Source: Oscillospiraceae bacterium (GTDB lineage Bacteria; Bacillota_A; Clostridia; Oscillospirales; CAG-272). From it: a stretch of DNA of 64,000 bases. The notes beneath the pieces were generated by a model, which did no database searches, was not told the origin of the DNA, and worked only from the letters and a program-made list of their open reading frames with translations. A program made the position numbers and the translations under genes. The first letter of the stretch is position 1. Every line of letters starts with the position of its first letter. Shown here piece after piece: positions 1,374 to 11,709 of the stretch. The DNA is taken from assembly GCA_015063335.1 (NCBI GenBank), contig SVUH01000003.1, forward strand, positions 15,763 to 79,762, read 5' to 3'.

Positions 1374-2226
1374 AATTACACTTGAAAACATAAGCTTTTA
1401 TCACGCTAAGGGAACTCCTTATGAGATAAAGGCGCTGAAAAATATCAACGTCAGTATCCCCGAGGGCTGTATAACAGGTCTTATCGGACACACGGGCTCT
1501 GGAAAATCAACGCTGGTGCAGATGTTCAACGGACTTCTTACACCACATGAGGGGCGAGTTCTTATCGACGGTAACGATATTTGGAGCGATAAAAAGAAAA
1601 TACGAGACGTAAGATTCAAGGTCGGTCTCGTAATGCAGTATCCGGAGTATCAGCTTTTTGAAGAGACTGTATACAGAGACATAGCGTTTGGACCTACAAA
1701 TATGGGACTTAATGAAAATGAGGTCAGGGACAGGGTTCTTGAGGCTGCCGAGTTCGTAGGACTTGAGTCTGCACTTCTCGAAAAATCTCCATTTGATCTT
1801 TCGGGAGGTCAAAAAAGAAGAGCCGCTATTGCCGGGATAATTGCCATGCGCCCCGAGGTCCTCGTCTTGGACGAGCCCGCCGCAGGGCTTGATCCAAGAG
1901 GACGCGACGCAATATTTGCAAATATCGCCGACTATCAGAAGAAAAGCGGAAGCACCGTAGTCATCGTCAGCCACAGCATGGAGGATATGGCAAAGCTTTG
2001 CGATCACCTCATAGTTATGTCCGACGGAGAAATACTTATGTCCGGAGACAGAGGTGCGGTTTTCGCAAAGGCTGATATGCTGACAAGCGTGGGACTTGAC
2101 GTGCCGCAGATCACTCGTCTTATGAATAATTTAAGAGCCCGCGGCGTTGACGTGGATGGCGGACTTTATACGATAGACATAGCAGTAGAATTTTTTAAAA
2201 AATATATAAGGGAAAACGGTAACTAA
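1366..2226 (+). CDS. ecfA2: ECF transporter ATPase EcfA2
   Basis: Second ATPase of the ECF module, 286 residues, forming a heterodimer with EcfA1 on the cytoplasmic face of EcfT. It has Walker A GHTGSGKST, signature LSGGQKRRAAIAG, and Walker B VLVLDEPAAGLDP, so unlike EcfA1 it keeps the standard DEP. The C-terminal extension with DVPQITRL matches the EcfA family and parallels NVPQCTEL in EcfA1. It overlaps the end of ecfA1 by 8 bases and ends 3 bases before ecfT, a very tight operon. Confidence 0.95.
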   Translation: MSKITLENISFYHAKGTPYEIKALKNINVSIPEGCITGLIGHTGSGKSTLVQMFNGLLTPHEGRVLIDGNDIWSDKKKIRDVRFKVGLVMQYPEYQLFEETVYRDIAFGPTNMGLNENEVRDRVLEAAEFVGLESALLEKSPFDLSGGQKRRAAIAGIIAMRPEVLVLDEPAAGLDPRGRDAIFANIADYQKKSGSTVVIVSHSMEDMAKLCDHLIVMSDGEILMSGDRGAVFAKADMLTSVGLDVPQITRLMNNLRARGVDVDGGLYTIDIAVEFFKKYIRENGN

Positions 2227-2229
2227 AAA

Positions 2230-3048
2230 ATGAAAGGTATTGCTCTTGGGCAGTATTATCCCGCTGACTCCTTTTTACACAAAGCAGATCCGAGAATTAA
2301 AATAATTCTCGCCGTGCTTTTTATCGTTTGTTCATTTTTGTGTAAAAACGTATTCAGCTTTGCGCTTTTGGCGCTTGGATCGATCGTATTGATAACGATC
2401 GGCAAAATCCCTCTGAAAATTGTATTCAGAGGCCTGCGCCCTATTTTAATAGTTTTAATAATAACCTCAACGTTCAATATCCTTTGGACGTCAGGAGAAA
2501 AGGCCTTGTTTAGCTGGTGGATCTTTGATGTTTATATCGAGGGCATATATGCCGCCATATTTATGGTTGTAAGGATTGCCTCGTTGGTTATAGGCACGTC
2601 AATGTTCTTGACCTATACCACAACTCCGATCGATCTTACAGATGCGATAGAGGATCTTTTGTCGCCGCTAAAAAAGCTTCACGTGCCTGTTCACGAGTTT
2701 GCGATGATGATGACGATCGCATTGAGATTTATTCCGACGCTCGTCGAGGAAACAGACAAGATCATGACAGCGCAAAAAGCAAGAGGCGTCGATTTTTCGA
2801 ACGGCAGTCTTATTAAACGCGCTAAGGCACTCATACCGATACTTATTCCGTTATTTGTTTCGGCATTCAACCGCGCGTCGGATCTTGCAACCGCCATGGA
2901 ATGCAGGTGTTATCATGGTGGCGAGGGCAGAACCCGTATGAAGGTAAGACATCTTAGATTTTTGGATCTCGTGCCGCTTATAATTATGATCATTTTTGCG
3001 GCAGCGATCGTATTTTTAAATATCCGCGGTTGGATATATACTATGTGA
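2230..3048 (+). CDS. ecfT: ECF transporter transmembrane subunit EcfT
   Basis: Membrane scaffold of the ECF transporter, 272 residues with about five hydrophobic segments. The two cytoplasmic coupling helices that contact the ATPases are visible: the first carries the ARG signature (AQKARGVDF), the second reads AMECRCYHGGEGRTRMK, a variant where the second ARG is replaced by CRC, a form I associate with clostridial EcfT. It begins 3 bases after ecfA2 and is followed by truA, whose ribosome binding site starts just after the ecfT stop. S components would be encoded elsewhere. Confidence 0.93.
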   Translation: MKGIALGQYYPADSFLHKADPRIKIILAVLFIVCSFLCKNVFSFALLALGSIVLITIGKIPLKIVFRGLRPILIVLIITSTFNILWTSGEKALFSWWIFDVYIEGIYAAIFMVVRIASLVIGTSMFLTYTTTPIDLTDAIEDLLSPLKKLHVPVHEFAMMMTIALRFIPTLVEETDKIMTAQKARGVDFSNGSLIKRAKALIPILIPLFVSAFNRASDLATAMECRCYHGGEGRTRMKVRHLRFLDLVPLIIMIIFAAAIVFLNIRGWIYTM

Positions 3049-3068
3049 GAGACAAGGAGAAAGGTAAT

Positions 3069-3827
3069 ATGAAAATATTGCTCGATATTTCTTTTCTTGG
3101 AACAGCATATTGCGGATATCAGGTTCAACCCAATGCTCCCACCGTCCAGGGCGAGCTTACCCGAGCTGCAAAAGAGCTGTTTGGCTTTGACTGCGATATA
3201 GTCGGATGTAGTCGCACGGATAGCGGAGTGCACGCAAACCATTTCTTTGCGGCAATAAACAAAAAGGAAAGCGAGGGAATAGATACCTCTATCCCATTAG
3301 AAAAAATCCCGAGTGCTTTTGATTTTTATTTACCCTCGGACATTACCGTTAATTCGGCAGTGTTGGTTGAAAACAGCTTTCATCCGAGATACGACGTAAA
3401 GCATAAGGAATATATATACAAGATCTGGAACGGCAGAGGCAGAAATCCGTTTTTGCAGGGGAGAAGCTGGCACTATCCCCGAAAGATCGACGATGACGCT
3501 TTAAATAGCATGAATATCGCCGCACAGGGCTTCGTAGGAACTTACGATTTTTTAGCTTACATGGCTGCAAATTCAAGCGTAAAAAGCACTGTGAGAACAG
3601 TATATTCGGCATCAGTAGAGCGAGACGGAGACCTCATTACGTTCCGTATATGCGGCGACGGATTTCTTTATAACATGGTTCGCATCATGACGGGAACCTT
3701 GATCTATGTTTGTGAGGGCAAGATAAGCCCCGAGGATATTATAAACATTACGAATTCAAAGGAGCGCAGCCGTGCAGGTATAACTGCCCCCGCCGAGGGT
3801 CTTTACCTAAATAATGTGACCTATTGA
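3069..3827 (+). CDS. truA: tRNA pseudouridine(38-40) synthase TruA
   Basis: Converts uridines 38-40 in the anticodon stem-loop of tRNAs to pseudouridine. The 252-residue protein begins MKILLDISFLGTAYCGYQ and contains the catalytic aspartate in SRTDSGVHA and the GDGFLYNMVR motif of the second half. An upstream in-frame ATG at 3030 overlaps ecfT, but the ATG at 3069 has AAGGAG 10 bases upstream and gives the family-typical N terminus, so it is preferred. ecfA-ecfT-truA is a common Firmicutes arrangement, often continuing from ribosomal protein operons. Confidence 0.95.
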   Translation: MKILLDISFLGTAYCGYQVQPNAPTVQGELTRAAKELFGFDCDIVGCSRTDSGVHANHFFAAINKKESEGIDTSIPLEKIPSAFDFYLPSDITVNSAVLVENSFHPRYDVKHKEYIYKIWNGRGRNPFLQGRSWHYPRKIDDDALNSMNIAAQGFVGTYDFLAYMAANSSVKSTVRTVYSASVERDGDLITFRICGDGFLYNMVRIMTGTLIYVCEGKISPEDIINITNSKERSRAGITAPAEGLYLNNVTY

Positions 3828-3859
3828 TCTTTAATTTTTACGAAAGGAGTCGAAACGCA

Positions 3860-5161
3860 GTGTTCGGTAAAAACAATAACAACGCACAAAACGAAAACAA
3901 AGAAACGAGCGCTAATAAAAAGTTCGGCTTCCTTAGTAAGCTTAGTAAGCTTGGAAATTATTTCAATCCCGAGCCTCAAAAGGAGCGAGTTCTTAGACAC
4001 GAGGATTTTAATGCGGCGGGCGACGTTTTTTACGCATCGGTTTCTGCGGGATATAAGATATCCCAAAGAATTATAGTAATTATTCTCGTTATATTCTTGC
4101 TGTTTTCGCTGATAACAAATTTCAGTCAGATAACGTATGATAATTTCTTTTATCTACTCAAGGATTTTGCCGCTGCGGCTGACGTGGAATCCACAAATTA
4201 CGACACCCTCTCATACACGTCGGATCCGAGAAACTTTTTTGCGCTTTACCGCGGCGGACTGACGGTTGCAAATCCGTCAAGAATATCTGCATATACGGCT
4301 ACGGGACGGCAGACAATAAATGCTTCGGTACAGTTTTCCTCACCCATTGTTGAAAGCTCGGATAAATATTTCGTAATATATGATATTTCAGGTACGACAT
4401 TTGCAGTCTATAATTCCTTTGCGAGAATTTATAAAGAGGATCTGGAATATCCTGTTACGGGCGCGTGCTTCGCAAAAAACGGCAATCTTGCCGTAATGAC
4501 TCGCGATATTGACCATAAATCTGTCGTACACGTTTATAACGATAATTTTAAGAGGCTGTTTACCGTGCCTTCCTCATCTGAGTATGCGTTTGATGTAGCT
4601 ATGGACAGCGATGCTGACAGAATTGCAATTACGTATTGGGGAATAGGAAACGGTACGGGAAGAATAACCGTTGATGTTTATGATTTATCCGGTAAAGAGG
4701 TTTCAAATATAATTATTGATGGCGAATACGTGCTCTCGACGGGATTTATATCGGAAAGTGTATTTTCAGTTGTAACCGACCGCGCAGTTCATTTGTACGA
4801 TAAAAATTTTGACGAATTAGACGATTATTACAGCTATGGCGGCGGTACGGTTACGGGATATGAGGTAAATGAGCACGGTGTTGCCGTGGCATATACGTCG
4901 AATTCGAGAAATACCGCCATTGTATTTGACAAATCCGGGAATTTGGTATATAATGAAAATATTGACAACAATATAAAAGATATTGATCTTTTTGATGAGT
5001 TTGTATTTTTCAGAACAGACGCGGGAGTCATGAGAGTTAACATATCAAGCTTCGAGGAAGAATTACTCACATCAGGGCAAGGTGAGATGCTCATATACAG
5101 TTCCGACACAGCACTGATCTGCGGAGATTCAAAGGCTGAATATTTAGTATTCGGAGAATAA
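3860..5161 (+). CDS. DUF5711-like membrane-anchored beta-propeller protein
   Basis: A 433-residue protein of unknown function. The GTG start at 3860 has AAAGGAG 10 bases upstream; a TTG further up overlaps the truA stop and has no such site. Residues 1-65 are cytoplasmic and rich in Asn, Lys and Ser. One transmembrane segment spans about 70-87. The rest is predicted outside the cell, with recurring short beta strands of the type D-L-S-G-K-E, Y-D-K-N-F and F-D-K-S-G-N, typical of PQQ/WD-like propellers. I recognise it as resembling the DUF5711 family. It may share a transcript with the next gene, 30 bases downstream. Confidence 0.7.
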   Translation: MFGKNNNNAQNENKETSANKKFGFLSKLSKLGNYFNPEPQKERVLRHEDFNAAGDVFYASVSAGYKISQRIIVIILVIFLLFSLITNFSQITYDNFFYLLKDFAAAADVESTNYDTLSYTSDPRNFFALYRGGLTVANPSRISAYTATGRQTINASVQFSSPIVESSDKYFVIYDISGTTFAVYNSFARIYKEDLEYPVTGACFAKNGNLAVMTRDIDHKSVVHVYNDNFKRLFTVPSSSEYAFDVAMDSDADRIAITYWGIGNGTGRITVDVYDLSGKEVSNIIIDGEYVLSTGFISESVFSVVTDRAVHLYDKNFDELDDYYSYGGGTVTGYEVNEHGVAVAYTSNSRNTAIVFDKSGNLVYNENIDNNIKDIDLFDEFVFFRTDAGVMRVNISSFEEELLTSGQGEMLIYSSDTALICGDSKAEYLVFGE

Positions 5162-6324: not shown

Positions 6325-8622
6325 ATGGTAATGTGTTCAAGATGCCACAAGAGAGTGGCGGTGGTTTTTGTAACCAAACTGGAAAACGGAAATAAAGTAA
6401 ATGAGGGCCTTTGTCTGAGATGCGCCAAGGAGCTTGGCTTGCCCGTAGATAACATGCTCGGAAACGTCATGAATCAGTACGGCATTTCTGCTGACGACCT
6501 TGAATCCATGGAGGATAGCCTCAACAGCATGATGCCTGCACCGTCCGACAATGACGATGTCGAGGAGGGCGGCGCACCTGCAATTGATCTGCCTAAGCTG
6601 TTTGAAGATGCAGGACTTCCCACAAAATCCCCCGACGCTCAAGGTCGCGCAAAAAAGAAAGGCGACGACACCTCAAAGCAAAAGAAATATAAATTCCTTG
6701 ATACCTATTGCCGTAACCTCACAAAGCGTGCGGCAGACGGCAAGCTCGACAGAATAATAGGCAGAGACAGAGAGCTTGACAGAGTAATACAGATCCTTTG
6801 CAGAAGACAGAAAAATAATCCCTGTCTTATAGGCGAGCCCGGTGTCGGAAAAACCGCTATTGCGGAAGCGCTTGCTCAAAGAATAGCCGACGGAAACGTT
6901 CCGTATAAGCTCAAGGGTAAGCAAATATATCTTGTTGACCTTACCGCGCTTGTTGCGGGAACACAGTTCAGAGGTCAGTTTGAGTCAAGAATTCTCGGAC
7001 TTCTTTCCGAGGTCAAGGCTGCGGGCAATGTTATTTTGGTTATCGACGAGGTTCATAACATTGTAGGTACGGGAGATGCTGAGGGTAGCGTTAATGCCGC
7101 AAATATTCTTAAGCCTGCGCTCTCGCGCGGCGAGGTACGTATTATTGGTGCAACTACGCTCAATGAGTATCGCAAGTATATAGAAAAGGATACCGCCCTT
7201 GAAAGAAGATTTCAGCCCGTTACGGTAAATGAGCCATCAATTGACGAAACGATTGAAATGCTTGAGGAGATCAAGCATTATTACGAGGATTTCCATTCTA
7301 TAAAAATACCCGACGGAGTGGTTCGCCGCGCGGTGATAATGTCAGAAAGATATATAATGGACCGCTATCTGCCCGATAAAGCTATCGACCTGCTTGACGA
7401 GGCGGCATCAAAGCTGTCTCTTACAAGTTCAGTATTGAACGAGGCACAGGAGATCCGAGAGAAGCTGCTGACTCTTAAAGAGCAACGTGAAAATCTTGAA
7501 GCGCAAACACCTGCTGACGAAAACGCAGCTCGCCGTTGCTACGAGGAAATTGCAGAGATCAAGGCGCAAGAAATACAGCTTTCCACAAAGCTTCGCGAAA
7601 TTGAGCCCTCATGCGAGAACGTAGTTCTTTCCGAGCAGGACATTGCAAACGTAATTGAGCTTTGGACGGGTATTCCCGCAGTAGACATATCAAAGAATGA
7701 ATTTGAGCAAATAGATAATCTCGAAAACAGACTTAAAAGCAGAATTATTGGTCAGGATAATGCCGTTGAAGCTGTCGCAAGAGCGATCAAGCGCAACCGC
7801 GCGGGAATATCCTATAAGAGAAAGCCCGTTTCCTTTATTTTTGCAGGCCCTACGGGTGTTGGAAAGACCGAGCTTGTTAAAACGCTTGCTACCGACCTTT
7901 TCCATTCCCCCGAGACCCTGATACGACTTGATATGTCGGAATTTATGGAAAAGCACTCTGTATCAAGAATTATCGGAGCGCCTCCCGGATACGTCGGATA
8001 TGACGAAGCAGGACAGCTTACAGAAAAAATACGCCGCCGTCCCTATTCCGTGGTGCTTTTTGATGAAATTGAAAAAGCACACCCCGACGTATTAAATATT
8101 CTTCTTCAGATTTTGGATGACGGAAGAATCACGGACGCAAGAGGTAAAACCGTTAACTTTGAAAATACAGTCATCGTTATGACAACCAATGCAGGCTCCG
8201 ACAGCACGGCTTCCACCGTGGGCTTCTTCAGTTCTGAGGAAAACGGAAGAAACGATAAAACAATGAAGGCGTTGTCCGCATTTTTGCGCCCTGAATTTAT
8301 AAACAGAGTGGATGAAATTATCACCTTTAATTCACTTACCGTAGATAACTTCAAGAAGATAGCCGTAATAATGCTTGATGAGCTAAAAACTGTTCTCGAA
8401 GAAAAGGGAATACGATTTACGTATTCCGACAGAGCAGTAGCATTCATTGCGCAAAAGTCGTTTTCGCAGAAGTACGGTGCAAGAAATATGCGCAGATTTA
8501 TTTGTACGAACGTTGAAGACCAGCTTGCCGAAAAAATTATTTCCGATTACGAAAGAAAAATTTGCGGAGTTTCCTTAAAATATTCTACTAAGGAAGATAA
8601 ATTAGTAATAGAGAGTATTTGA
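6325..8622 (+). CDS. clpE: ClpE-type AAA+ unfoldase with N-terminal zinc finger
   Basis: Hsp100/Clp ATPase that unfolds substrates for ClpP. The 765-residue protein starts with a four-cysteine zinc finger (Cys4, Cys7, Cys30, Cys33), as in ClpE, instead of the double Clp_N domain of ClpC. AAA domain 1 has Walker A GEPGVGKT at 170-177 and Walker B VIDE at 239-242; a short coiled middle domain lies at about 370-430; AAA domain 2 has Walker A GPTGVGKT at 508-515 and Walker B LFDE. A VGF tripeptide at 632-634 sits where ClpC/ClpE dock onto ClpP. The linker 65-125 is acidic and low complexity. No clear Shine-Dalgarno precedes either ATG (6325 or 6331). The stop lies 2 bases before the next gene. 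Confidence 0.9.
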   Translation: MVMCSRCHKRVAVVFVTKLENGNKVNEGLCLRCAKELGLPVDNMLGNVMNQYGISADDLESMEDSLNSMMPAPSDNDDVEEGGAPAIDLPKLFEDAGLPTKSPDAQGRAKKKGDDTSKQKKYKFLDTYCRNLTKRAADGKLDRIIGRDRELDRVIQILCRRQKNNPCLIGEPGVGKTAIAEALAQRIADGNVPYKLKGKQIYLVDLTALVAGTQFRGQFESRILGLLSEVKAAGNVILVIDEVHNIVGTGDAEGSVNAANILKPALSRGEVRIIGATTLNEYRKYIEKDTALERRFQPVTVNEPSIDETIEMLEEIKHYYEDFHSIKIPDGVVRRAVIMSERYIMDRYLPDKAIDLLDEAASKLSLTSSVLNEAQEIREKLLTLKEQRENLEAQTPADENAARRCYEEIAEIKAQEIQLSTKLREIEPSCENVVLSEQDIANVIELWTGIPAVDISKNEFEQIDNLENRLKSRIIGQDNAVEAVARAIKRNRAGISYKRKPVSFIFAGPTGVGKTELVKTLATDLFHSPETLIRLDMSEFMEKHSVSRIIGAPPGYVGYDEAGQLTEKIRRRPYSVVLFDEIEKAHPDVLNILLQILDDGRITDARGKTVNFENTVIVMTTNAGSDSTASTVGFFSSEENGRNDKTMKALSAFLRPEFINRVDEIITFNSLTVDNFKKIAVIMLDELKTVLEEKGIRFTYSDRAVAFIAQKSFSQKYGARNMRRFICTNVEDQLAEKIISDYERKICGVSLKYSTKEDKLVIESI

Positions 8623-8624
8623 CA

Positions 8625-11351
8625 ATGAACGAAAAATGGTTTCTGTTAAGCATTGCCGAAATTGAAAAAAAGCTGAAAACCAATGCCGCCTCGGGTCTTA
8701 CCCGCAAGGCGGCTCGTTCTGCTTGGTATCGCATAAGTCACAAAAACGGTGCTTTGTTTATAACCCAACGCAAGAGCTTTAGAAAAATGCTGGGTGAGAT
8801 CCTATCGGATTTTTCACTGATAATGCTCTTGCTTGCATCGCTGTTCGCTATACTTTTTGATGAAGGCCATATGGGCTGGACGGTAATGATCATTGCTTCG
8901 GTAAGCTTGATCTTTTCTTTCGTTCTTTACCACAATCTTCAGCGAAGCATGGAACAGGTCAATTTATACTTTTTGCCAACGGCAAAGGTCATAAGAGGCG
9001 GAAAGCTTTATAGAATTTCCTTTGATAATGTAGTGCCGGGTGACGTAATTATTCTTGAAAAGGGAGATATAGTTTGCGCCGACGCTCGCTTGGTCACCTC
9101 TGACAGTTTAAAGGTATCAATGCGGGTAAATAAGGGCAAATACATACCCTTGGATAAGCAATCTAACGGGGTTGTATCCCAGGAAGAAAACGATCCAGCA
9201 AAGTTCGTAAATACACTGCACGGTGGCTCTGTAATAACAGAGGGAAGTGCGCGAGCGATAGTTTACGCTACAGGAAAATATACCTATCTTGGAGCAATGA
9301 CCGGCGGTATCGTTGAACCGTATAACAATAACATCCCCGCAGAGCTTAGAAAAATGAGAAAAATGTGCGCTCGCATAAGTATGTTCTCACTTATTGCAAT
9401 ACTGCCGTTTTGCGCCGTAAGCATTTTACTCAGTAAGATGACAGGCGAGGGGGCGGTACTGTCCTCGACGTTTTTGACGGCTCTCGCAATAGCCGCATCG
9501 TCAATGACACAGCTTTCATGTACGCTTTACAAGGTGTTCTTTATAAGCAAAATTAAAAATGCGTTCAACGAAAAAAGCGCGGTTGCAATTCGCACGACCG
9601 ATGCTTTTGATAAACTTTACAACACAAGCTACTTATTCATGCTTGACGGAGCATCCGTCACGGATGGTATTTTGCATTTTGATACTGCTTTTACGGCCGA
9701 GGGCGAGGTCGCGGGAGCGGTAAAGCCGAGCGCATCGGTAAAGACGCTATTAGAGCTTTCTTTGCTATACAATATATCACAATCCAATATGCTTGCCGCG
9801 GGAATAAATTCACCCGACAAATACAAAACAGGGCTCGAAGAATTTATTTCAAAGGGTAATTTTGACGCACAGGCGCTGAAATTGCGTTGTCAAGTCAAAT
9901 CATTTATTTCGGGAACAACTAAAGTGCCCTCCGATCAGGTTATTTACACCGATGCGGGGCGGCAAACAGTTTTATGTGTATCTCGTTCGTCTAATATTCT
10001 TTCTGAATGCTCGCATGCACTCATTTCCGGCTCTGTTCAGCCCCTATCTAGCATCGGTACAGACAAGCTCAGACACACATACGAGCTTCATGCTGCAAAA
10101 GGTAAAACAGTACTATTCTTTACATTGTCAACACCTCAAAGTGTTGGTAACACTACAGGAAAGATATTTGTAGGCGGTGTGGTTTTGCGTGAGGGGGTTG
10201 ATAAGAACGCATATACGGGAATCCTCGATTTGCAAAAAAAGGGAATTAAAGTTATTTCCTTTGTGGGCAGTGAGCTTAATAAAAACGCTCCTCAAATTCC
10301 CATCGAATTCCACTCAAAACAGTCTGCGCGCAAGCAAGATTTTATCAATAACGGAGTACCGATCACATACAAATTCGGAGAAATCAATACGTATTACGAT
10401 ATGAGCTTATCTGATATCGAATTACTATTAGATCATGCACACAAGAATGGAGAATCGGTCGCGGTCGTGAGCTTTACTGAAGCATCTCCAACTATAATGA
10501 AGGCTGCCGACGTTCTTATCTCATGTTCTCCGCTTGTAGACGTTTTTTCAGCAAAAAACGAGGAAGAGCTTTACACGCTTGAAATGGCAGGCTCACAAAC
10601 GAGCGCTTCGTGCGAGCAAGTAATAAAATCCAAGTCCGACGTGCTTCTGTCACGTCCGTGGAACAACAAGGGCGGAATATCGTCTCTGGCTTCTGCCTTA
10701 TCCTTTGCCGAAGCGGCACATAAAAACCTTATCAGCTTTTTTAAATACATGCTTTGCGCACAGCTTTTAAGAATTATACTCGTTGCGTTACCCATGGCTT
10801 TTGGAACCCCTGCGCTTGACGCGCGCCACGTAGTGTTGTGTAGCTTTTTGATCGATATTTTAGTTTTGTTGATGCTTGCTTCCGATAAAACTCAAGCTCC
10901 TTCTGCAAAACGTCACAAATACGGAATGATGACTTTAAAAATGCATATTTTAAGCGAAAACAGACTTTTGATATGCGCTCTCGCTTCGGGAATTGTGGCA
11001 ATAACACTACCTGTTTTGATGAACGCCGTGGGAGTTTTCGGACAGCTCTTATATGACGTTGAATACTATTTCTGCGCCACTGTATGGCTTCATTTAGTGC
11101 TCGCGTATTATATCCGCTTCCAAAGTGTTCTCAGAATCAAGCACGTGCTTAAAAATAAGTATTTTCTTGGACTTACCCTAGGTACGATAGCTTTCATATC
11201 TCTCATATCAATTGTAAATTCGATAGGCGTTTGGTTTAACGTTGACACGCATCAATTGCCATATTTCATTGCATCGTTCGTACCGAGTATCGTATTCTCC
11301 GTAACATACGAGATCTTTATTTTCTCGCGCAAAACGCATAAGCGCAAATGA
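8625..11351 (+). CDS. P2-type ATPase homologue lacking catalytic motifs (pseudoenzyme)
   Basis: A 908-residue membrane protein with the overall plan of a P2-type cation pump: cation_ATPase_N-like start (GLTRKAA near 24-30), membrane helices at about 60-105, an actuator domain with VPGD (137-140) and KGD (146-148), two more helices, a large cytoplasmic domain, and a six-helix C-terminal region from about 700. Every catalytic signature is altered: TGES reads NKGK (169-172), PEGLP in helix 4 reads SSMTQ, DKTGTLT reads DGASVT (341-346), DPPR and TGD are lost (FVGS at 546-549), and GDGxND reads FTEASP (617-622) although the following KAADV is kept. The frame is intact, so the protein is likely made but cannot pump by the normal cycle. 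It starts 2 bases after clpE, implying coupled translation. Confidence 0.8.
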   Translation: MNEKWFLLSIAEIEKKLKTNAASGLTRKAARSAWYRISHKNGALFITQRKSFRKMLGEILSDFSLIMLLLASLFAILFDEGHMGWTVMIIASVSLIFSFVLYHNLQRSMEQVNLYFLPTAKVIRGGKLYRISFDNVVPGDVIILEKGDIVCADARLVTSDSLKVSMRVNKGKYIPLDKQSNGVVSQEENDPAKFVNTLHGGSVITEGSARAIVYATGKYTYLGAMTGGIVEPYNNNIPAELRKMRKMCARISMFSLIAILPFCAVSILLSKMTGEGAVLSSTFLTALAIAASSMTQLSCTLYKVFFISKIKNAFNEKSAVAIRTTDAFDKLYNTSYLFMLDGASVTDGILHFDTAFTAEGEVAGAVKPSASVKTLLELSLLYNISQSNMLAAGINSPDKYKTGLEEFISKGNFDAQALKLRCQVKSFISGTTKVPSDQVIYTDAGRQTVLCVSRSSNILSECSHALISGSVQPLSSIGTDKLRHTYELHAAKGKTVLFFTLSTPQSVGNTTGKIFVGGVVLREGVDKNAYTGILDLQKKGIKVISFVGSELNKNAPQIPIEFHSKQSARKQDFINNGVPITYKFGEINTYYDMSLSDIELLLDHAHKNGESVAVVSFTEASPTIMKAADVLISCSPLVDVFSAKNEEELYTLEMAGSQTSASCEQVIKSKSDVLLSRPWNNKGGISSLASALSFAEAAHKNLISFFKYMLCAQLLRIILVALPMAFGTPALDARHVVLCSFLIDILVLLMLASDKTQAPSAKRHKYGMMTLKMHILSENRLLICALASGIVAITLPVLMNAVGVFGQLLYDVEYYFCATVWLHLVLAYYIRFQSVLRIKHVLKNKYFLGLTLGTIAFISLISIVNSIGVWFNVDTHQLPYFIASFVPSIVFSVTYEIFIFSRKTHKRK

Positions 11352-11362
11352 ATATATAACTC

Positions 11363-11407
11363 TCTCCTTTGCATAAATTGTAATGATTTTTGCAAAGGAG
11401 ATTTTTA
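11363..11407 (+). promoter_or_regulatory. Perfect 11-bp inverted repeat covering the ylmC ribosome binding site
   Basis: Arms 11363-11373 (TCTCCTTTGCA) and 11391-11401 (TGCAAAGGAGA) are perfect reverse complements with a 17-base loop. The 3' arm contains the AAAGGAG Shine-Dalgarno sequence of ylmC, and ATTTTTATT follows, so in RNA it could act as a weak terminator for clpE and the ATPase-like gene, as a lid on the ylmC ribosome binding site, or both. Confidence 0.6.
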
Positions 11408-11409
11408 TT

Positions 11410-11709
11410 GTGGAACGATTCAACACTTGCGACTTGAGAGATAAAGAAGTGATAAATTTATGTGACGGAACGCGCTTAGGATGTCCGTCTGATTTTGAAT
11501 TCAATAGCTGCGACGGAAAGATCACCGCAATAATATTACCGGGGCAGGGGGGATTCTTGGGCCTTGGAAAATCGCGGGATATCGTAATACCGTGGAATAA
11601 AATTGAGTGTATAGGTGAAGATACAATACTTGTAAGACTGCCGCCCAATGAATTTTTCATGCCCGATGAGGACAGAAGGAAGAAGAAAAAAGGATTTTGG
11701 CAGCTTTAA
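11410..11709 (+). CDS. ylmC: YlmC/YmxH family sporulation protein (PRC-barrel)
   Basis: A 99-residue protein with the PRC-barrel pattern of the YlmC/YmxH family: an LRDKEVINLCDGTRLG strand pair near the start, then ITAIILPGQGGFLG, DIVIPWNKI and a VRLPP end. Members are linked to sporulation in Bacilli and Clostridia; the molecular role is unclear. The GTG start at 11410 is 9 bases after AAAGGAG; the ATG at 11383 lies in the hairpin loop and has no site. It follows the ATPase-like gene by 58 bases and precedes the rpsB promoter. Confidence 0.85.
   Translation: MERFNTCDLRDKEVINLCDGTRLGCPSDFEFNSCDGKITAIILPGQGGFLGLGKSRDIVIPWNKIECIGEDTILVRLPPNEFFMPDEDRRKKKKGFWQL

Follow-up and report, generated by a model that had tools for sequence, protein, structure and literature searches.

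P-type ATPases are textbook pumps, and the locus considered here raises the question of what such a protein is kept for once the residues of the pump cycle are gone. The window, namely, the whole analyzed stretch of 64,000 nucleotides of contig SVUH01000003.1 of an Oscillospiraceae bacterium (assembly GCA_015063335.1), contains on the forward strand the gene of a pseudo-P2-type ATPase of 908 aa (8625..11351), referred to below as the pseudo-pump. Its ATG at 8625 lies 2 nt after the stop codon (8620–8622) of the gene clpE, encoding an AAA+ unfoldase of 765 aa (6325..8622, forward strand). A sequence-only reading of this DNA had reported an intact frame of 908 codons starting 2 bases past a ClpE-type gene; both the bases and the frame, ending at 11351, were confirmed. 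The encoded protein almost certainly runs no P-type pump cycle, and it may instead serve ClpE at the membrane.

Domain Organization and Loss of Catalytic Motifs

The layout of a P2-type ATPase is retained at full length, as the sequence-only reading had proposed. Predicted models of the window protein and its distant relative P0125 (predicted local distance difference test, pLDDT, 84) align with SERCA-type pumps and relatives, namely, SPCA1, SERCA and MgtA, over all domains, with actuator (A), nucleotide-binding (N) and phosphorylation (P) domains and a ten-helix membrane domain arranged in the P2 order. The best sequence match in the PDB, according to phmmer, is LMCA1 (lmo0841), the Ca2+-ATPase of Listeria (2e-22). 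Pfam E1-E2_ATPase was found at residues 118–292 (2.1e-20), the C-terminal pump domain stayed below its cut-off (22.3 vs. 27.3 bits), and the HAD/P-domain family was not listed in the Pfam scan. NCBIfam pump models cover the protein only to residue ~290, the best of them with 75.6 bits at a cut-off of 798.3. The A domain (residues 118–236; 8976..9332, forward strand) is conserved and lacks TGES. The landmarks VPGD, KGD, GLTRKAA and KAADV, pointed out earlier as retained, are all present, and the residues of PGD (G139, D140) and KGD (G147, D148) are invariant among homologues, but the Lys of KAADV varies in an alignment of 45 rows. The protein thus shares with P2A Ca2+-ATPases (LMCA1/lmo0841, PMR1/SPCA1, SERCA) its length, the ten-helix membrane domain, the A, N and P domains and the break in M4, whereas the phosphorylatable Asp, TGES, GDGxND, TGD and KGA are absent and the Glu of M5 is replaced by Arg.

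A profile–profile alignment, in which 120 close homologues, 24 proteins of the genus, 56 distant proteins of the family and 23 order-drawn proteins linked to clpE were set against 19 working pumps of related genomes, served to compare the catalytic positions; the resulting 223 pseudo-pump rows overlap in part, at least four fetched frames containing a protein of the 120. Nine catalytic residues are each kept in all 19 working pumps. In the window protein, the alignments place KGKY (residues 170–173; 9132..9143) at the position of TGES, L340-D341 (9642..9647) at the Asp-Lys of DKTGT and VSFTEAS (residues 615–621; 10467..10487) at the position of TGDGVND, all on the forward strand. PEGLP is replaced by an SxxQ stretch, DKTGT by LDGAS (Asp to Leu, Lys to Asp), KGA by VSR, DPPR by EGVD and TGD by VGS; the Asp of DKTGT, TGES and GDGxND, by which a working pump is recognized, are all missing. 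The replacement of TGES, PEGLP, DKTGTLT, DPPR, TGD and GDGxND, read at first from the single sequence, holds against the 19 working pumps.

These losses are shared by the relatives. The position of the phosphorylated Asp is occupied by Leu in 111 of the 120 close homologues and by Asp in none of them; Asp was found there in 4/223 rows overall and in 1/80 of the fetched family rows. D341, invariant in 120/120 close homologues, stands at the Lys position, one residue past the catalytic Asp. An interpretation of the first, 45-row alignment, in which D341 was the retained phosphorylated Asp, was rejected, as HMMER, hhalign and MAFFT put L340 at this place. Aligned TGE is absent from the 120 close homologues and the 23 order-drawn rows and present in 4 of the 80 fetched family rows (the distant rows L099, L113, L114 and L130), none of which contains GDGxND. 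The latter motif was found in neither the 120 close homologues nor the 80 fetched proteins, and its first Asp is present in 3 of the 223 rows. A homologue with intact DKTGT and TGES was thus not found among the aligned rows (Asp-Lys at its place in 0/223, TGE in 4/223). The letters DKTG in the distant member L113 (residue 658) and the close homologue P0101 (residue 410) lie away from the phosphorylation site and were dismissed as chance. None of the nine catalytic residues is kept in 136 rows, one in 44, two in 21, three in 15, four in 6 and five, the maximum, in a single distant family row, L130.

A less eroded state is represented by 59 relatives of an order-drawn member (alignment set A4, from which the short row P0177 was excluded). 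The Thr of TGES is kept in all 59, the Gly in 58 and the Glu in none; the phosphorylation site contains Asp in 31 and Asn in 26, no protein keeps the next Lys, and 55 retain the later one; of GDGxND, the last Asp is present in 54 and the first in 4, with at most 3/7 residues in any protein. These graded remnants across the groups suggest an early loss that was followed by stepwise erosion.

Public sources call P0048, P0083, P0125, P0129 and P0146 cation-transporting P-type or Ca2+-transporting ATPases despite their absent catalytic residues. Since such members are named as pumps without the residues of a pump, their transport annotations are probably wrong.

Selection and Shifted Constraint

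The ratio of nonsynonymous to synonymous substitution rates (dN/dS) of the pseudo-pump is 0.046–0.118 in the five pairs whose dS is below 1 (three of these pairs come from the trio L096, L098 and L102) and 0.046–0.210 across all 18 pairs, in 13 of which dS exceeds 1. In the same five pairs, values for clpE are 0.020–0.034, and those for truA, in four of them, 0.090–0.178. Purifying selection acts on the pseudo-pump as on any ordinary gene, less tightly than on clpE. Frames of at least 881 aa are present in 79 of the 80 fetched loci, the remaining one (L087, 828 aa) being cut by a contig end; 2 of the 25 genus rows show one TGA inside the match, yet contain open frames of 896 and 897 aa. Signs of relaxed selection or frameshifts, named earlier as marks of a decaying gene, were not found in these relatives.

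In a tree of 77 rows, 58 pseudo-pump rows and 19 working pumps are split on one branch with support of 100; the tree was obtained by a quick method with Shimodaira–Hasegawa-like approximate likelihood ratio test (SH-aLRT) support and a midpoint root, its branches are long, and 21 of its rows were flagged as unusual in composition. It includes 8 of the 120 close homologues and every second family row from L077 up, with L167 excluded. Its simplest reading would be that catalytic loss occurred once and early. The mean pairwise identity of distant members is about 23–24%.

Constraint was expressed as identity relative to the mean of each set, without phylogenetic correction. The N-terminal segment (residues 1–50; 8625..8774, forward strand) is relatively the most conserved part of the protein in the 120 close homologues (1.51) and the least conserved in 15 working pumps (0.73), with values of 1.31 in distant family rows and 1.18 in order-drawn rows. 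For the A domain, relative constraint is 1.09 in working pumps, 1.35 in close homologues, 1.47 in distant family rows and 1.46 in order-drawn rows; for the second P segment, it is 1.17 in working pumps, 0.93 in close homologues and 0.95 in distant family rows. Helices M7–M10 are the least conserved part (0.67). In the clade of the window protein, constraint has shifted away from the P domain and towards the N-terminus and A domain.

Because the loss is shared, selection is purifying and length is full, the earlier proposal of a selected non-pumping role, and not of decay, is supported; the role of a receptor, regulatory subunit or sensor, suggested along with it, would be compatible with such a protein.

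Pairing with clpE

The upstream gene encodes a protein with two AAA modules (Pfam AAA_2, AAA and ClpB_D2-small), a CxxC..CxxC zinc finger at the N-terminus and a ClpP-type loop, VGF, at residues 632–634, i.e., with all the traits of ClpE that were looked for. None of the 25 NCBIfam models listed for it exceeds its cut-off, and we take the protein to be ClpE from the zinc finger, a trait of this family. The zinc-finger residues Cys 4, 7, 30 and 33 are aligned in 74–75 of 81 ClpE from loci with the gene pair, and the xGF loop is present in 75/75.

A search with a profile of 45 rows at E 1e-50, the counts of which are lower bounds, revealed the pseudo-pump in 24 of 30 genomes of the genus to which the nearest genome, G001, belongs, 111 of 395 genomes of the family, 6 of 245 of the order and 1 of 299 of the phylum, the last being G001 itself. 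Nine further loci adjoining clpE, in 8 genomes, carry a pseudo-pump below this threshold. Two copies with equal scores were found on two contigs of one genome, G604 (L042 and L043), which may represent duplication or assembly redundancy.

Loci were fetched from all 24 positive genomes of the genus and from 56 further ones of the 111 positive in the family. The gene clpE lies directly upstream of the pseudo-pump in 77 of these 80 loci, and in 70 of the 77 the clpE stop codon and the first ATG of the frame are at most 60 nt apart. Two of the remaining loci, L072 (408 nt of upstream sequence with a piece of clpE) and L087 (no clpE), meet contig ends; L089, with ample upstream sequence and no clpE beside the pseudo-pump, is the true exception. 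The coupling to clpE proposed from the single locus is thus general in the family sample, clpE being the constant neighbor while downstream genes vary.

Draws anchored on clpE, made mostly from the top of the match lists and therefore leaning to close ClpE, showed the pseudo-pump downstream in 23/40 order-drawn and 0/40 class-drawn loci, little or no downstream sequence being available in L163, L202, L210, L215, L219 and L230. Six of the 40 order-drawn genomes also belong to a draw of 59 genomes of the family; 19 of the other 34 are positive, and some of these 34 may also be of the family. In five of the six genus genomes without the pseudo-pump, no match to clpE was obtained at E 1e-200; the sixth has a clpE gene truncated at a contig end.

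In L254 (504–1313), rpsB directly follows clpE, without pseudo-pump or ylmC between them, which indicates that a clean gain or loss of the pseudo-pump gene is possible at this junction. The one P-type gene observed behind clpE among the class-drawn loci, in L219 (619–1851), starts ~4 nt after a clpE-like gene and encodes a pump with TGES and an HMA domain, truncated at the contig end; this adjacency is probably a coincidence.

Former Ion-Binding Site

The Glu of M5, the Asp of M6 and other M4–M6 positions are taken here, from the roles of the SERCA residues, to be the cation sites of P2A pumps. R716 of helix M5 (10770..10772, forward strand) is aligned with the Glu of working P2A pumps; Arg is present at this position in 115/120 close and 43/56 distant homologues, and in the 19 working pumps the position contains Glu in 15 and Ala in 4. 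D744 of helix M6 (10854..10856, forward strand) occupies the position of a conserved Asp, found in 117/120 close homologues, 45/56 distant family members and 19/19 working pumps. The Glu of PEGLP in M4 is replaced by Gln in 114/120 close homologues and is still present in 50/56 distant family members; in the close clade, the Asn of M5 is replaced by Gln in 106/120 and the Asn of M6 by Ser or Gly in 112/120. The P2A set of cation-site residues is therefore not present in the window protein, and the M6 Asp is the sole such position kept in the close clade. Judging from the alignment, R716 and D744 may form a fixed salt bridge. Both the M5 Arg and the M6 Asp are absent from the less eroded group of 59 order-level relatives, and the Arg–Asp trait thus belongs to the family of the window protein, not to the whole clade.

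Possible Function and Alternative Explanations

The following model is proposed. Early in the lineage, a full-length paralogue of P2-type Ca2+-ATPases would have lost its phosphorylation cycle, and the dead pump would have been retained as a membrane pseudoenzyme, gene-paired with clpE. Its N-terminus and A domain would form a cytosolic docking face, and the protein would work with ClpE as a receptor or anchor, bringing ClpE, together with ClpP, to membrane substrates; alternatively within the same model, a membrane-side signal would gate ClpE through the pseudo-pump. A membrane receptor, anchor or gate serving ClpE is suggested by gene order and conservation with a probability of about 0.4. 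The wider proposal that a lineage of Clostridia made a Ca2+ pump into the membrane receptor of an AAA+ protease, with ClpE(P) docked at the N-terminus and A domain and proteolysis gated by conformational change of a frozen pump body that answers to a ligand or lipid and no longer to ATP, is speculative and rather doubtful.

Several observations weigh against a role in the service of ClpE. The gene clpE stands without a pseudo-pump in 17/40 order-drawn loci (in two of them, L163 and L202, little sequence follows clpE) and in all 40 class-drawn ones, and of 18 further clpE loci of the family that leave room for it, 10 have no adjoining P-type gene (second copies L263 and L264 and cut loci L245 and L262 are excluded from this count). 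The joint absence of both genes from genus genomes may stem from assembly gaps. No residue discriminates ClpE of 81 loci with the pseudo-pump from ClpE of 10 loci without it. Distances of the pseudo-pump correlate with those of clpE with r 0.66 and with those of truA with 0.59 (partial correlation 0.38; 58 loci); co-divergence with clpE, a weak excess over truA, was discarded as a candidate link. The second P segment keeps its relative constraint in order-drawn rows (1.14 vs. 1.17 in working pumps). Finally, the window ClpE shares the zinc finger, two AAA modules and ClpP loop with ClpE of the CtsR regulon of Bacillus subtilis and relatives, but no CtsR box was found near the window clpE; the two matches with three mismatches in the whole window are at chance level (1.96 expected), and control of clpE by CtsR was rejected.

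The same observations leave room for a pseudoenzyme with another partner, which would sense ions, lipids or a nucleotide and share an operon with clpE for co-expression, e.g., under stress. The absence of discriminating residues in ClpE, the frequent occurrence of clpE without a pseudo-pump and locus L089, containing a pseudo-pump without clpE, are consistent with this explanation, which is possible but on the unlikely side; against it stand the constancy of clpE as the neighbor in 77/80 loci, with ylmC following in 43/75, and the different next genes of the four order-drawn loci scanned, namely, those of a ParA/Mrp-type protein (L166), a radical SAM protein (L168) and TrmK (L169, L172). The partner could also be a working P2A Ca2+-ATPase present in that cell, regulated via a hetero-oligomer or by competition. 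All 16 tested genomes contain matches to the pump family TIGR01116, none of them over the family cut-off, and DKTGT was found in at least one locus per tested genome (in G001, in contig pieces only) and in 29 of 30 fetched loci. In L120, the gene order is clpE, pseudo-pump, rpsB, tsf and a working pump (1422–4061; 880 aa, with TGES, DKTGT and GDGVND), located on the same strand ~2.5 kb from the pseudo-pump. However, L120 alone among the 80 fetched loci has a DKTGT frame, and working pumps are also present in G588 and G597, in which no pseudo-pump was found and clpE is missing or cut; regulation of this kind is improbable.

Still less is expected of a membrane domain that would act without ATP as a passive conduit, a channel or a lipid scramblase. 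The polar residues of M5 and M6 kept in the window's family (R716, D744) and the break of M4 near residues 292–294 in the predicted model would suit such a function, but the strongest constraint is cytosolic, M7–M10 are the least conserved part, and the order-level group lacks both polar residues. For the window protein, ATP-driven transport through a non-canonical chemistry such as that claimed for human TMEM94/ERMA is very improbable. According to one report, ERMA performs ATP-driven Mg2+ uptake without TGES and with the site DKQGI (PMC13322241). Among order-level relatives, the Asp is retained in 31/59 and the later Lys in 55/59, while TGES keeps its Thr in 59 and its Gly in 58, and the distant family row L130 retains five of the nine catalytic residues; on the other side, the clade of the window protein lacks the Asp (0/120) and the other catalytic residues tested, and another group is reported to have detected no ATPase activity of TMEM94 (PMC12134183). 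Decay of the gene, for which catalytic loss alone would speak, has a negligible probability, given the frames of at least 881 aa in 79/80 loci, dN/dS well below 1, the shared loss and the tight linkage to clpE.

TMEM94/ERMA, a P-type fold without TGES and GDGxND, is the nearest precedent, likened to the window protein by missing motifs only; it is eukaryotic and keeps the Asp (DKQGI), whereas the window protein has no such Asp and is linked to clpE. P-type ATPase pseudoenzymes are barely known: a search of open-licence literature gave none beyond the TMEM94 dispute, no bacterial pseudo-P-type ATPase, linked to ClpE or otherwise, and no pump-like partner named for ClpE. A bacterial clade in which motif loss is graded and the AAA+ neighbor is constant makes it testable what the pump scaffold can do without the pump cycle, and a dead pump preserved by selection in some gut-type Clostridia suggests that the pump shape now has a different job.

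Neighboring Genes

The gene order in the window is pgsA, clpE, pseudo-pump, ylmC, rpsB and tsf, the names pgsA, rpsB and tsf being assigned from their sequences. The gene ylmC/ymxH (11383..11709, forward strand; TIGR02888, 72.3 bits at a cut-off of 44.2) lies within 600 nt of the pseudo-pump in 43 of 75 loci with room, as judged by BLAST with the ylmC of the window, by which divergent copies may be missed. Since it is not a constant neighbor, ylmC is not part of the clpE/pseudo-pump unit. Of the genomes with the pseudo-pump, 55/63 were found to contain spoIVA, as were 12/12 genomes whose clpE has none beside it; the gene does not discriminate between them, and the link to sporulation hinted at earlier through ylmC was not supported. 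A protein of 445 aa, encoded between truA and clpE (3824–5161), is found in the same place in most related loci, with identity of 24–81%.
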